32,013 nt of DNA, from assembly GCA_024398495.1 (NCBI GenBank), contig JAKSJA010000020.1, positions 1 through 32,013 on the forward strand, read 5' to 3'. This document shows positions 1 to 1,780 of this stretch, one piece after another; within the stretch, counting starts at the first letter, position 1, and every line of letters begins with the position of its first letter. The DNA is from Bacteroidaceae bacterium. GTDB taxonomy: Bacteria > Bacteroidota > Bacteroidia > Bacteroidales > Bacteroidaceae. The notes beneath the pieces are model-generated. The model saw only the letters and a program-made list of their open reading frames with translations, made no database searches and was not told where the DNA came from. Both the position numbers and the translations under genes were made by a program.

Positions 1-50
1 CCTGATTTCTTATTCTATCCAAGTCCTATTTCATAGTCCTTCGGAATTTC

Positions 51-229
51 TACGCGGAGAGCAGAGACGCAAGCCCTGCTTGCTGCGCAGAGATTTAATT
101 TCCCCTGTTATCTGGTTTTCTAATTTTCTAATTTCCTGAGTTCCTAATTGTCTAAGTTTCAGAATTTCCCTCCTCAAAGAGGAGTCTCTCTGCGTAGCAC
201 CTATAAGGTGCGCCTCTGCCCTCTGCGTA
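51..229. mobile_element. MITE-like inverted-repeat element A with variable hairpins
   Basis: The two ends are mirror images. The left end is an 18-nt arm TACGCGGAGAGCAGAGAC (51-68), a 15-nt hairpin GCAAGC-CCT-GCTTGC (69-83) and a 9-nt arm TGCGCAGAG (84-92). The right end is CTCTGCGTA (188-196), a different hairpin GCACCT-ATA-AGGTGC (197-211) and GCCTCTGCCCTCTGCGTA (212-229). The arms match as inverted repeats with a few mismatches, while the hairpins inside them differ. The 95-bp interior has no coding look and contains a further 6-3-6 palindrome, CTCCTC-AAA-GAGGAG, at 170-184. A second element of the same design lies at 1440-1581. No clear target-site duplication was found, so mobility is inferred from the inverted ends and the two copies. 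Confidence 0.6.
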
Positions 230-241
230 CAAAATTCATGA

Positions 242-338
242 GACTGCTTCAGCAGTCGTGAAGGAGTACAGACATCAAGCGTAAATTTATTTACAGATTG
301 TGGCTGTAATGCTTCACGGAAGTTCAAAAAACTTTGAA
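242..338. repeat. Spacer with two more short palindromes
   Basis: Between element A and the 21-bp repeats there are two perfect short palindromes: GACTGC-TTCA-GCAGTC at 242-257 and TTCAAA-AAAC-TTTGAA at 323-338. No T-run follows either in the minus (transcribed) direction, so they are not convincing terminators. Their function is unknown. Confidence 0.45.
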
Positions 339-347
339 TTTTGCTCT

Positions 348-423
348 GCGAGAGGCTTATTTTCATTTGCGAGAGGCTTATTTTCATTTGCGAGAGGTTC
401 ATAATCATTTGCGAGAGAGTTTA
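348..423. repeat. 21-bp direct repeats, about 3.6 units
   Basis: Units begin at 348, 369, 390 and 411. The first two are identical: GCGAGAGG followed by CTTATTTTCATTT. The third has GTTCATAATCATTT after GCGAGAG, and the fourth is partial. The array lies at the 3' end of the minus-strand GT2 gene and supplies its last codons and its TGA stop (405-407). A homologous array sits at 1724-1780 behind the next glycosyltransferase gene. Confidence 0.85.
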
Positions 424-1271
424 GAGTTTGACGTGGCGACCATGTTTCTTATGTCTGCCATCTTATCTGCATACATCTCAAACAGTTTCCTACCGTTTAT
501 CTGCAACTGTTCTGCGGTGAAAGAGTTATTATAAACCCTCATTCCTCCCGGTGACAATGAGAAGAATGAAGCATCATACCATCCGACTTGCAAGCCTGCA
601 AGCCATGCGCGGCAACACATCTCATAGTCATCACATTGAAATGGTGCAAAAGTCTGGTCTATATGTTTTAATTTCTCAAGCATCAACGGCTTGTTTATCC
701 ATTCTGGAGCCCTGTTTATGGTAGGCACGAAACGGAAGTCCTTACCAGAATCGCCGATGACATCCGAACTGCCATCGTAGCCTTTGTCACTGAACTTCAA
801 ATCACGCGCGCCCTTGCCTCCAAGGATAACCATGCGAGGATATTTTCGCATCAGTTGCAGTCCTTCCGTCACCCAATCGAGAGTGTGGAAATCGTCATCA
901 TCCTGCATCAGCACTACATAATCAGCGTTGGCGAAACGGATTGCCTTGTCGTAAGTGGATATCTCAAACAGGTCATTTGCATGTATGACAAATTCGTTTG
1001 CACCAGTAAGTGAAGAGAACAGACGTTTTGAGTGCTCCATACTGCTACCGTCATCGATGACAATGATTTCGGACTTCGGTACGTTACGCAACTTCTCTAC
1101 GACATGGAGTATCTGCAGGCTTTTGTTATGGCACTCCAAGACAAAGGACACTTCTGGCTGACAGTCATATCCTTTTGCTGTCCACCATGCATGGGATTTC
1201 TTCTTGCCTCCCATACCACTGCGTTTCAATAACGACAAGCGTAGTTTATCTATCAACAATGCTAATGCCAT
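405..1271 (-). CDS. Family 2 glycosyltransferase
   Basis: Predicted inverting glycosyltransferase with a GT-A fold, acting in the cytoplasm or at the inner membrane in surface-polysaccharide synthesis; donor and acceptor are unknown. Counting from the ATG at 1271 (288 aa), the sequence shows SFVLECHNKS (42-51) at the start of the Rossmann-like half, VIDDGSS (71-77), and an acidic QDDDD cluster (123-127) at the expected metal-binding DxD position. A late CDDYEMCCRAW stretch fits the usual GT2 acceptor-side motif. The frame stays open up to an ATG at 1331, but those 20 extra residues are encoded by short repeats (RETKQRETKK), so the 1271 start is preferred. The last residues (KLSRK) and the stop come from a 21-bp repeat array. 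It is the last gene of a minus-strand operon beginning at 3904. Confidence 0.88.
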   Translation of the reverse strand: MALALLIDKLRLSLLKRSGMGGKKKSHAWWTAKGYDCQPEVSFVLECHNKSLQILHVVEKLRNVPKSEIIVIDDGSSMEHSKRLFSSLTGANEFVIHANDLFEISTYDKAIRFANADYVVLMQDDDDFHTLDWVTEGLQLMRKYPRMVILGGKGARDLKFSDKGYDGSSDVIGDSGKDFRFVPTINRAPEWINKPLMLEKLKHIDQTFAPFQCDDYEMCCRAWLAGLQVGWYDASFFSLSPGGMRVYNNSFTAEQLQINGRKLFEMYADKMADIRNMVATSNSKLSRK

Positions 1272-1303
1272 GTTTAGTTGTTTATTTCTCTTTTTTGTTT
1301 CTC

Positions 1304-1325
1304 GCTGTTTTGTTTCTCGCAGAGG
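1304..1325. repeat. Short GCGAGAAACAAA repeats upstream of the GT2 gene
   Basis: On the minus strand, CTCTGCGAGAAACAAAAC is followed at once by AGCGAGAAACAAAAAAG. The word CTCTGCGAGA is shared with the 21-bp arrays at 348 and 1724 and with the arms of elements A and B, which suggests one repeat family on both sides of the gene. Confidence 0.5.
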
Positions 1326-1412
1326 AATCATCGTTTTGCTTCACAAAATTTGTGTAGTCTCTTAAAAGCCCATCATCAAACAAGTTTGCCATTGTCTTTT
1401 AATAGACTCCAC

Positions 1413-1430
1413 GCACTGGCATAGCAGTGC
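1413..1430. repeat. Palindrome GCACTG-GCATAG-CAGTGC
   Basis: A perfect 6-bp stem with a 6-nt loop, just outside element B. It extends the series of short palindromes in this spacer. Confidence 0.5.
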
Positions 1431-1439
1431 CGATGATTC

Positions 1440-1581
1440 TACGCAGAGAGCAGAGAGCAATCTATGATTGCTACGCAGAGTTTTTGAGACAATAGTGTAA
1501 GTTTGGGTGTTGACTATATCATTTGTAAATTGTATTTTCCTCTGCGCAGCAAGCAGGGCTTGCGCCTCTGCCCTCTGCGTA
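1440..1581. mobile_element. MITE-like inverted-repeat element B with variable hairpins
   Basis: Same design as element A at 51-229. The left end is TACGCAGAGAGCAGAGA (1440-1456), hairpin GCAATC-TAT-GATTGC (1457-1471) and TACGCAGAG (1472-1480). The right end is CTCTGCGCA (1540-1548), hairpin GCAAGC-AGG-GCTTGC (1549-1563) and GCCTCTGCCCTCTGCGTA (1564-1581). Read from its own end inward, the right hairpin of B is identical to the left hairpin of A, while the other two hairpins differ. The 59-bp interior has no evident similarity to that of element A. No target-site duplication was recognised. Confidence 0.6.
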
Positions 1582-1592
1582 ATGAAATACGT

Positions 1593-1667
1593 TGCACAAA
1601 GTGCATAGCGGAATGCGATGGTCACAACAAAGTTTACTTTGGATGTGAGCAATCCGCATTTTGCGGA
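1593..1667. repeat. Two palindromes: TGCAC-AAA-GTGCA and TCCGCA-TTT-TGCGGA
   Basis: The two perfect palindromes, each with a 3-nt loop, are at 1593-1605 (5-bp stem) and 1653-1667 (6-bp stem). They lie between element B and the 21-bp repeats, mirroring the arrangement beside element A. Confidence 0.5.
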
Positions 1668-1723
1668 AATTGATGGAGTCAATTCGTATTTCATCTCTGC
1701 GAGAGACTTAAAAATTTTACTCT

Positions 1724-1780
1724 GCGAGAGGATTATTTTCATTTGCGAGAGGTTTAATTTCATTTACGCGAGGTTCAATT
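1724..1780. repeat. 21-bp direct repeats, about 2.7 units
   Basis: Units begin at 1724, 1745 and 1766 with GCGAGAGG (degenerate ACGCGAGG in the last) followed by ATTATTTTCATTT-like sequence. An isolated CTCTGCGAGAGAC lies just outside at 1695-1707. The array ends 1 nt from the stop codon of the minus-strand glycosyltransferase gene (1782-1784), the same placement as the array at 348-423. Confidence 0.8.

Follow-up and report, generated by a model that had tools for sequence, protein, structure and literature searches.

The hairpin-bearing inverted-repeat elements at 51-229 (A) and 1440-1581 (B) of a 32,013-nt stretch of Bacteroidaceae DNA are the centres of nested composite intergenic elements of about 275-850 bp, and not, as proposed in the initial annotation, units bounded by ~42-nt inverted ends and similar to miniature inverted-repeat transposable elements (MITEs). 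This stretch (hereafter the window) is contig C13 of a Bacteroidaceae bacterium draft genome (1.43 Mb, 63% complete). According to structure prediction, one strand of a composite is folded into a tree of two nested four-way junctions, the branches of which are found in several unlike sequences. We give an even chance to the following reading: these are mobile, mostly non-autonomous intergenic elements of gut bacteria, whose folded strand is conserved and which are multiplied by a nuclease of the GxxExxY family. All the folds mentioned below are predicted and the gene calls are plain open reading frames (ORFs).

Composite B covers 1314-1705. From outside to inside, it consists of an outer stem of ~11 bp, two modules of ~115 nt, a stem of 16-18 bp, two 15-nt hairpins, a stem of ~9 bp and a variable interior. 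Its left half (plus strand) contains the outer arm TTCTCGCAGAG (1314-1324), a module of class gat predicted as a three-arm cloverleaf (1325-1439, z-score −6.1), an arm of the long stem (1440-1456), the small hairpin GCAATC-TAT-GATTGC, i.e., stem type GCAATC (1457-1471), and the inner arm (1472-1480). The interior (1481-1539) is followed, on the minus strand, by the inner arm CTCTGCGCA (1540-1548), the hairpin GCAAGC-AGG-GCTTGC, of stem type GCAAGC (1549-1563), the second arm of the long stem (1564-1581), a module of class acg, also a three-arm cloverleaf (1582-1694, z-score −6.3), and the outer arm CTCTCGCAGAG (1695-1705), a second copy of which is found at 1720-1730.

Composite A is built in the same order. 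Only the 3' part of its left module is present (1-50, plus strand), the 5' part being beyond the contig start; it is assigned to class cgg, since it ends with CTTCGGAATTTC like other cgg modules and gives a partial model match at 1-59. Then come, on the plus strand, the arm of the long stem TACGCGGAG AGCAGAGAC (51-68), the hairpin GCAAGC-CCT-GCTTGC of stem type GCAAGC (69-83) and the inner arm TGCGCAGAG (84-92). Beyond the interior (93-187), which has nothing in common with that of B, the minus strand carries the inner arm (188-196), the hairpin GCACCT-ATA-AGGTGC of stem type GCACCT (197-211), the arm of the long stem (212-229), a module of class tca folded as a three-arm cloverleaf (230-343, z-score −4.8) and the outer arm CTCTCGCAGAG (344-354). 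Direct reading of the sequence thus bears out several points of the initial annotation: (i) the coordinates of A and B; (ii) the arm, hairpin and arm layout of their inverted ends, each part being located in both; (iii) the GCAAGC stem shared by the left end of A and the right end of B; (iv) the unlikeness of the two interiors. When up to 3 mismatches are allowed, the arm pattern occurs 4 times in the window vs. 0.01 expected by shuffling.

The minus strand of composite B is predicted to be far more stable than chance, with z-scores of −11.3 as RNA and −14.0 as DNA. The minimum-energy structure calculated for DNA contains two nested four-way junctions, with all the stems, cloverleafs, hairpins and the interior. 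In the RNA minimum, the two small hairpins are merged into one longer stem. Because each branch closes on itself, any of them could be replaced without harm to the trunk.

The composites were compared in the window genome and in a close relative, a metagenome-assembled genome of Candidatus Equicola stercoris (Bacteroidaceae), a species described from horse faeces. This is the same assembly as G199 and G321 (identical contig coordinates); one DUF349 protein has 96% identity between it and the window genome. Ends were counted when both arms were found: 32 in the window genome, where 3 of the 35 listed were dropped for want of a second arm (C16:25491, C34:64709 and C35:701), and 27 in the relative. 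The count does not include partial ends (e.g., C9:1432 and C1:52718).

Outside most of the ~42-nt inverted ends is found a self-closed module of ~115 nt (bodies of 108-116 nt), which has its own closing inverted repeat and a further CTCTCGCAGAG as its boundary. The modules belong to five sequence classes (gat, tca, caag, acg and cgg) and their predicted cloverleaf comprises a closing helix, a small hairpin, a long arm with, in most classes, a AAGTAAACTT-like tip, and a second small hairpin. The fold was evaluated for 44 of the 59 ends, as 11 have no module or outer arm in reach and 4, with a 146-nt module and an inserted repeat, were excluded. On the basis of single-sequence minimum energy, a three-arm cloverleaf is obtained for 34 of these 44 modules vs. 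77 of 4400 dinucleotide shuffles (z-scores from −1.5 to −8.2); the remaining 10 are mostly one long hairpin. In the closing helix, 8.75 of 9 positions are paired within a module vs. 4.71 of 9 across classes. In a 15-row alignment, which was anchored to line up this helix, contains related rows that are not independent and has three acg rows gapped at 5 of the 9 closing pairs, 99.2% of cells are paired and a compensatory change is found in 9/9 pairs. The covariation score of the helix was reached by none of 500 shuffles and is lost when the alignment is slid by one column. A given module class is found with two or three hairpin types, and the classes on the left and right of an element occur in mixed combinations.

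Two variants of the tca class must be mentioned. In the enlarged modules of 146 nt (counted from the outer arm) at C1:93948 of the window genome and on C15, C24 and C45 of the relative, a CCTCTCCCC-type palindromic repeat takes the place of part of the cloverleaf. A longer subfamily, alike over ~850 bp, comprises C12:93105-93954 of the window genome and the relatives C2, C34 and Ca. E. stercoris C50; its members have a tca module, mostly GCAACT hairpins and conserved outer and inner tandem repeats, and are often located at contig ends.

The small hairpins are exchanged in the same manner at the inner level. Among the 57 of 59 ends that can be read for this part (the other 2 are cut by contig ends), a 5-6-bp hairpin stands between the arms in 50, no insert is present in 4 and the insert is degenerate or non-palindromic in 3. 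Fixed arms around a palindromic insert of changing sequence, as foreseen in the initial annotation, are thus the rule in these two genomes, and the same holds for 20/20 ends in two further species. Within the window genome and Ca. E. stercoris, the stems are of four types, i.e., GCACCT, GCAACT, GCAAGC and GCAATC, and the loops vary more. The elements on C18 and C19 start with the same interior, one with and one without a hairpin. At the hairpin base, read outward, GTAG is found in 36 and GCAG in 11 of the 47 ends fitting the pattern in the two genomes; in G008 and G262 (see below), hairpins also begin with GTAA or GTGA. It had been suggested that the hairpin is exchanged or rewritten while its frame is kept. 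Exchange agrees with discrete stem types found in many combinations across loci, while continuous rewriting is not seen, the loops only being freer. Nor is the exchange confined to the hairpin, as had been supposed: it takes place at two levels and includes the larger outer modules.

The same tree is found in more distant species. A covariance model of the module recovers 22 copies in the window genome and, with strict filters, a single weak match (E 0.0045) among 149 other genomes of the genus, in G008. This match has the same architecture, with arms CGCAAAG/CTTTGCG. A pattern for both arm types is present in 8 of 398 members of the genus; the architecture is real in G000, G321, G008 (9 matches) and G262 (2 matches), and the sequence surrounding the single matches in G092, G115, G106 and G355 does not have it. 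The arms of G008 and G262 are CGCAAAG/CTTTGCG and also CGCCAAG. Their 20 palindromic hairpins have stems such as GCAGTC, GCTCC, GTGCT, GCCTC, GCTTC and GCACC, i.e., types only partly shared. Their modules, of new sequence, give a cloverleaf in 15 of 20 cases vs. 55 of 2000 shuffles; this count includes the far-end module on C17 of G008, which differs from the right module of that element and is probably part of a neighbouring one. The tree has therefore been kept through a change of sequence in trunk, hairpins and modules alike.

The initial annotation had proposed a comparison of strains for empty sites. All six sites for which both flanks could be located together proved empty in the other species, thus the elements come and go. 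The stretch 1272-1781 of the window, i.e., composite B with its flanking repeats, has no counterpart in Ca. E. stercoris, where the flank matches are 2 bases apart. The elements on C18, C21, C35 and C15 of the window genome are also absent there, and that on C24 of Ca. E. stercoris is absent in the window genome, where two genes appear to overlap as ATGA. From the window genome to the relative, 2106 of 2833 query bases were used (C1 and C28 left out): in this first set of six elements, four had both flanks together, the C8 flanks were on two contigs and C37 gave a repetitive match only. In the opposite direction, 1799 of 3000 bases were used (C80, C20, C75, C79 and C90 left out) and, for the six elements of this second set, both flanks were found for C24 only. 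The element at C8:34850-35298 of the window genome and that at C75:23456-24011 of Ca. E. stercoris share their left flank and have different right-hand genes, which may reflect an element-mediated rearrangement or an assembly join.

On the basis of simple ORF calls and without a background rate, 17 of the 21 listed composites are flanked on each side by an ORF no more than 350 bp away: 13 are between co-directional genes, 2 between convergent and 2 between divergent ones. With the same calls, tca and acg modules face the 3' end of a gene in 10 of the 13 cases with an ORF, and gat and cgg modules face the 5' end in 11 of 15. The ends of G008 have no constant orientation with respect to transcription.

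Two composites of the 21 listed are known to contain a gene for a GxxExxY protein in their interior; A and B do not. The C35 element of the window genome, located between galM-like and galK-like genes, has in its interior a GxxExxY ORF and a partial further end. The C13 element of G262 contains a second such ORF, 58% identical to the first and likewise beside a truncated end. Both ORFs are in the same sense as the flanking genes, and the distance from stop codon to inner arm is 4 bp (C35) and 7 bp (G262). The protein matches PD-(D/E)XK nucleases (PF13366; TIGR04256), with D67, E77 and K79 invariant in 9/9 aligned members; no match was obtained when solved structures were searched by sequence. 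Among 72,556 plasmid records, 8 contain the gene, which was not found in the 50,697 phage records or the viral contigs searched. All six annotated plasmid copies are between co-directional genes, e.g., fabD and fabG. When perfect inverted repeats of at least 11 nt are sought up to 100 nt from the gene, four of the eight are flanked by one (11-20 nt) vs. 2 of 2000 control pairs, which were random and drawn from loci mostly of this genus rather than from plasmids. Three of these four repeats are CRCAGAG words, as in the window. No cloverleaf was seen within 100-160 nt of the plasmid copies. The absence of GxxExxY from G199 would suit a passenger gene; this view was abandoned in the light of the additional ORF in G262 and of the plasmid copies, and we infer that GxxExxY mobilises the elements.

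The following scheme is proposed. A GxxExxY-family nuclease recognising structure or arms, and encoded in the interior of some copies, would multiply the elements; the folded strand is probably what is recognised. The enzyme would introduce a nick or a cut at the arms or junctions, and the folded strand, or a repair copy of it, would be integrated between genes, chiefly co-directional ones. Exchange of branches might take place at the short CGCAGAG words that are shared, through recombination or template switching. A more general statement can be put forward tentatively: GxxExxY nucleases may represent an unrecognised, widespread class of mobile elements settling between genes of operons and flanked by inverted repeats of CRCAGAG words, of which, in this genus, non-autonomous copies may have evolved into nested cruciform trees, the fold itself being recognised and every branch being swappable for an unlike sequence of equal shape.

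Several results, besides the origin of the control pairs mentioned above, weigh against the proposed scheme. Concerning the gene, four of the eight plasmid copies have no long inverted repeat; in the Gemmatirosa copy, the CRCAGAG words of the inverted repeat are in the opposite order around the gene, and the gene itself, matched as two separate pieces, is possibly broken; the Ca. E. stercoris assembly, which may be incomplete, has 27 ends and no GxxExxY match; and the 3.4-kb locus of the other GxxExxY gene of the window genome (C17) contains no such arm words. Concerning insertion, no clean target duplication was found at the sites compared, ATGA on both sides at one site may be a coincidence and the other sites give an unclear picture. 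Moreover, one comparable flank is shared by C19 of the window genome and C50 of Ca. E. stercoris, with an element beside it in both species, thus not every element is recent. Both elements contain a gat module, part of which is replaced in C50, as well as an arm that lacks the hairpin; the far side is caag in one and acg in the other. Finally, the two main genomes are incomplete drafts with many element ends near contig ends, so that some joins may be wrong.

The 13 of 17 elements located between co-directional genes, the polarity of the ends relative to genes (10/13 and 11/15) and the sense-strand fold far beyond chance would also be expected of structured intercistronic RNAs, i.e., processing sites, mRNA stabilisers or insulators, in which selection on the RNA tree, and not mobility, keeps the fold. 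Read-through is moreover plausible, as there is no terminator-like site within A or B. We nevertheless consider such a function at the RNA level unlikely: no particular copy is needed, since at all six comparable sites the flanks are without an element in the other species; the orientation of the ends varies in G008; and the pairing does not single out RNA, because the DNA and RNA folds agree. A relation to the repetitive extragenic palindromic (REP) sequences and bacterial interspersed mosaic elements (BIMEs), moved by a Y1 transposase (REP-associated tyrosine transposase, RAYT), appears quite improbable. The small hairpins would then be REP units and the composites their mosaics, in agreement with the GTAG or GCAG at the hairpin base, which recalls GTAG-tagged REPs, and with a single Y1 transposase match per genome in the two that were tested (that of Ca. 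E. stercoris being below the cut-off). However, the two Y1 loci (1.9 and 3.1 kb) are devoid of the arm words searched, except for one lone CGCAGAG, hairpins of G008 and G262 can start with GTAA or GTGA, and the ends number tens and not hundreds. The accounts consulted also describe REPs as short single palindromes, with neither a 115-nt cloverleaf nor a paired trunk.

Passive mosaics, finally, would require no dedicated enzyme: replication slippage and homologous recombination would suffice for the gain, loss and shuffling of palindromes flanked by short direct repeats (CGCAGAG). This would account for the fact that hairpin-free and filled ends differ by little beyond the hairpin (18 nt between C19 and C18), for the simple 8-nt repeats in the gap at empty sites and for the C8/C75 pair, with its common left flank and different right genes, as expected from recombination between copies. 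We hold this explanation to be very improbable, as it leaves unexplained both the arrival of whole elements between genes and the maintenance of one fold in many unlike sequences across four species.

Other interpretations of A and B were considered and rejected. A coding role is improbable: two ORFs cross the elements, 31-408 (minus strand, 125 codons) across A and 1362-1763 (minus strand, 133 codons) across B, and are probably not genes. A shared reading frame is unlikely, since related modules differ in length by single bases; both ORFs would be annotated as hypothetical proteins. An invertible promoter was discarded, as there is no excess of promoter-like sites (10 vs. 6.7 in shuffles) and the interiors differ between copies. 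A phage origin was not retained either: 20 stretches of the viral collection have one match each to a 16-base pattern, judged to be chance without being inspected singly. A plasmid search with one module gave no match. No Rfam covariance model matches the elements above its gathering score: only two tRNAs are found in the window, with one irrelevant weak match in 1-1800 and none in four related loci.

The gene between A and B encodes a family 2 glycosyltransferase (405-1271, minus strand). Its start is most likely at 1271-1269, as the match to the relative ends at 1272, and the ORF extends over 405-1331. Tandem repeats of 21 nt, CTCTCGCAAATGAAAATAAGC, are found at its 3' end (355-416, minus strand) and supply its stop codon (405-407). 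Such fast-changing tandem repeats, either the 21-nt CTCTCGCAAATGAAAATAAGC or an 8-nt AACCGNA, are found in intergenic gaps of both species (355-416 and 1706-1777 in the window), and they also occupy some gaps where the element is absent. An AT-rich repeat of ~80 nt, TAGATTTTAATTTTTAGAAAGCATAGAG..., unrelated to the elements, occurs at C13:30645-30725 and in eight other places of the genome. On contig C17 (L135 6-1223), a protein with two Polysacc_synt_C stretches contains an in-frame DUF559 domain (PF04480), which is flanked by a 28-nt inverted repeat, CCTCTCCCCAGCCCTCCCC; a similar repeat, CCTCTCCCC, fills the interiors of several elements (C18 and C19 of the window genome) and of relatives.

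Among known systems, BIMEs and REPs are, in the parts of the reports cited, intergenic mosaics of palindromic units and other motifs, with hybrid combinations and palindromes maintained through complementary changes (PMC2817692, PMC3733652). The present elements resemble them in being intergenic, palindromic and modular. REP units are palindromes of 20-40 nt with GTAG or CGTC at one foot; a GYAG hairpin base is found here in two species, and GTAA and GTGA also occur in G008 and G262. The present elements differ in that their branches are arranged on two levels within a paired trunk, the large ones being ~115-nt cloverleafs of several sequence classes, and in that no RAYT was found beside the elements in the two genomes tested. 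Copy number differs too: 32 and 27 ends in incomplete genomes, instead of more than 100 copies per genome. The BOX elements of streptococci (boxA-boxB-boxC) are, in the cited portion of their description, modular intergenic sequences for which RNA folds are predicted; the loss or repetition of one module leaves the rest undisturbed, and each module is defined by a sequence model (PMC3049150). That description sets them apart from the present elements, in which the sequence of a slot changes and its fold is kept.

The composites have in common with MITEs that they are short, mostly non-coding, provided with inverted arms and present or absent between relatives; their terminal repeats, i.e., the outer CTCTCGCAGAG and the inner arms, are indeed inverted. 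They differ in that their ends are multi-layered and changeable, that no clear target duplication was seen and that a search of two families (Y1 transposase and PDDEXK_3) gave no cognate insertion sequence having such ends. As for GxxExxY genes, two of the elements hold one and three of the eight plasmid copies lie within inverted repeats of CRCAGAG words, whereas most of the present elements have no such gene; the passage of the GxxExxY literature examined makes no link to such elements. In the literature covered, mostly as titles, no recognised description of nested junctions with sequence-exchanged cloverleafs was found, and one may exist.

These elements, present or absent from one relative to another, offer a clean natural case in which shape is inherited and sequence is exchanged, and this at two nested levels. 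The availability of several unlike sequences for one cloverleaf is useful to learn what is recognised by a nuclease that reads structure or by an enzyme of RNA processing. The GxxExxY proteins, which family models place among PD-(D/E)XK nucleases without a biological role, thereby gain a role that can be tested.

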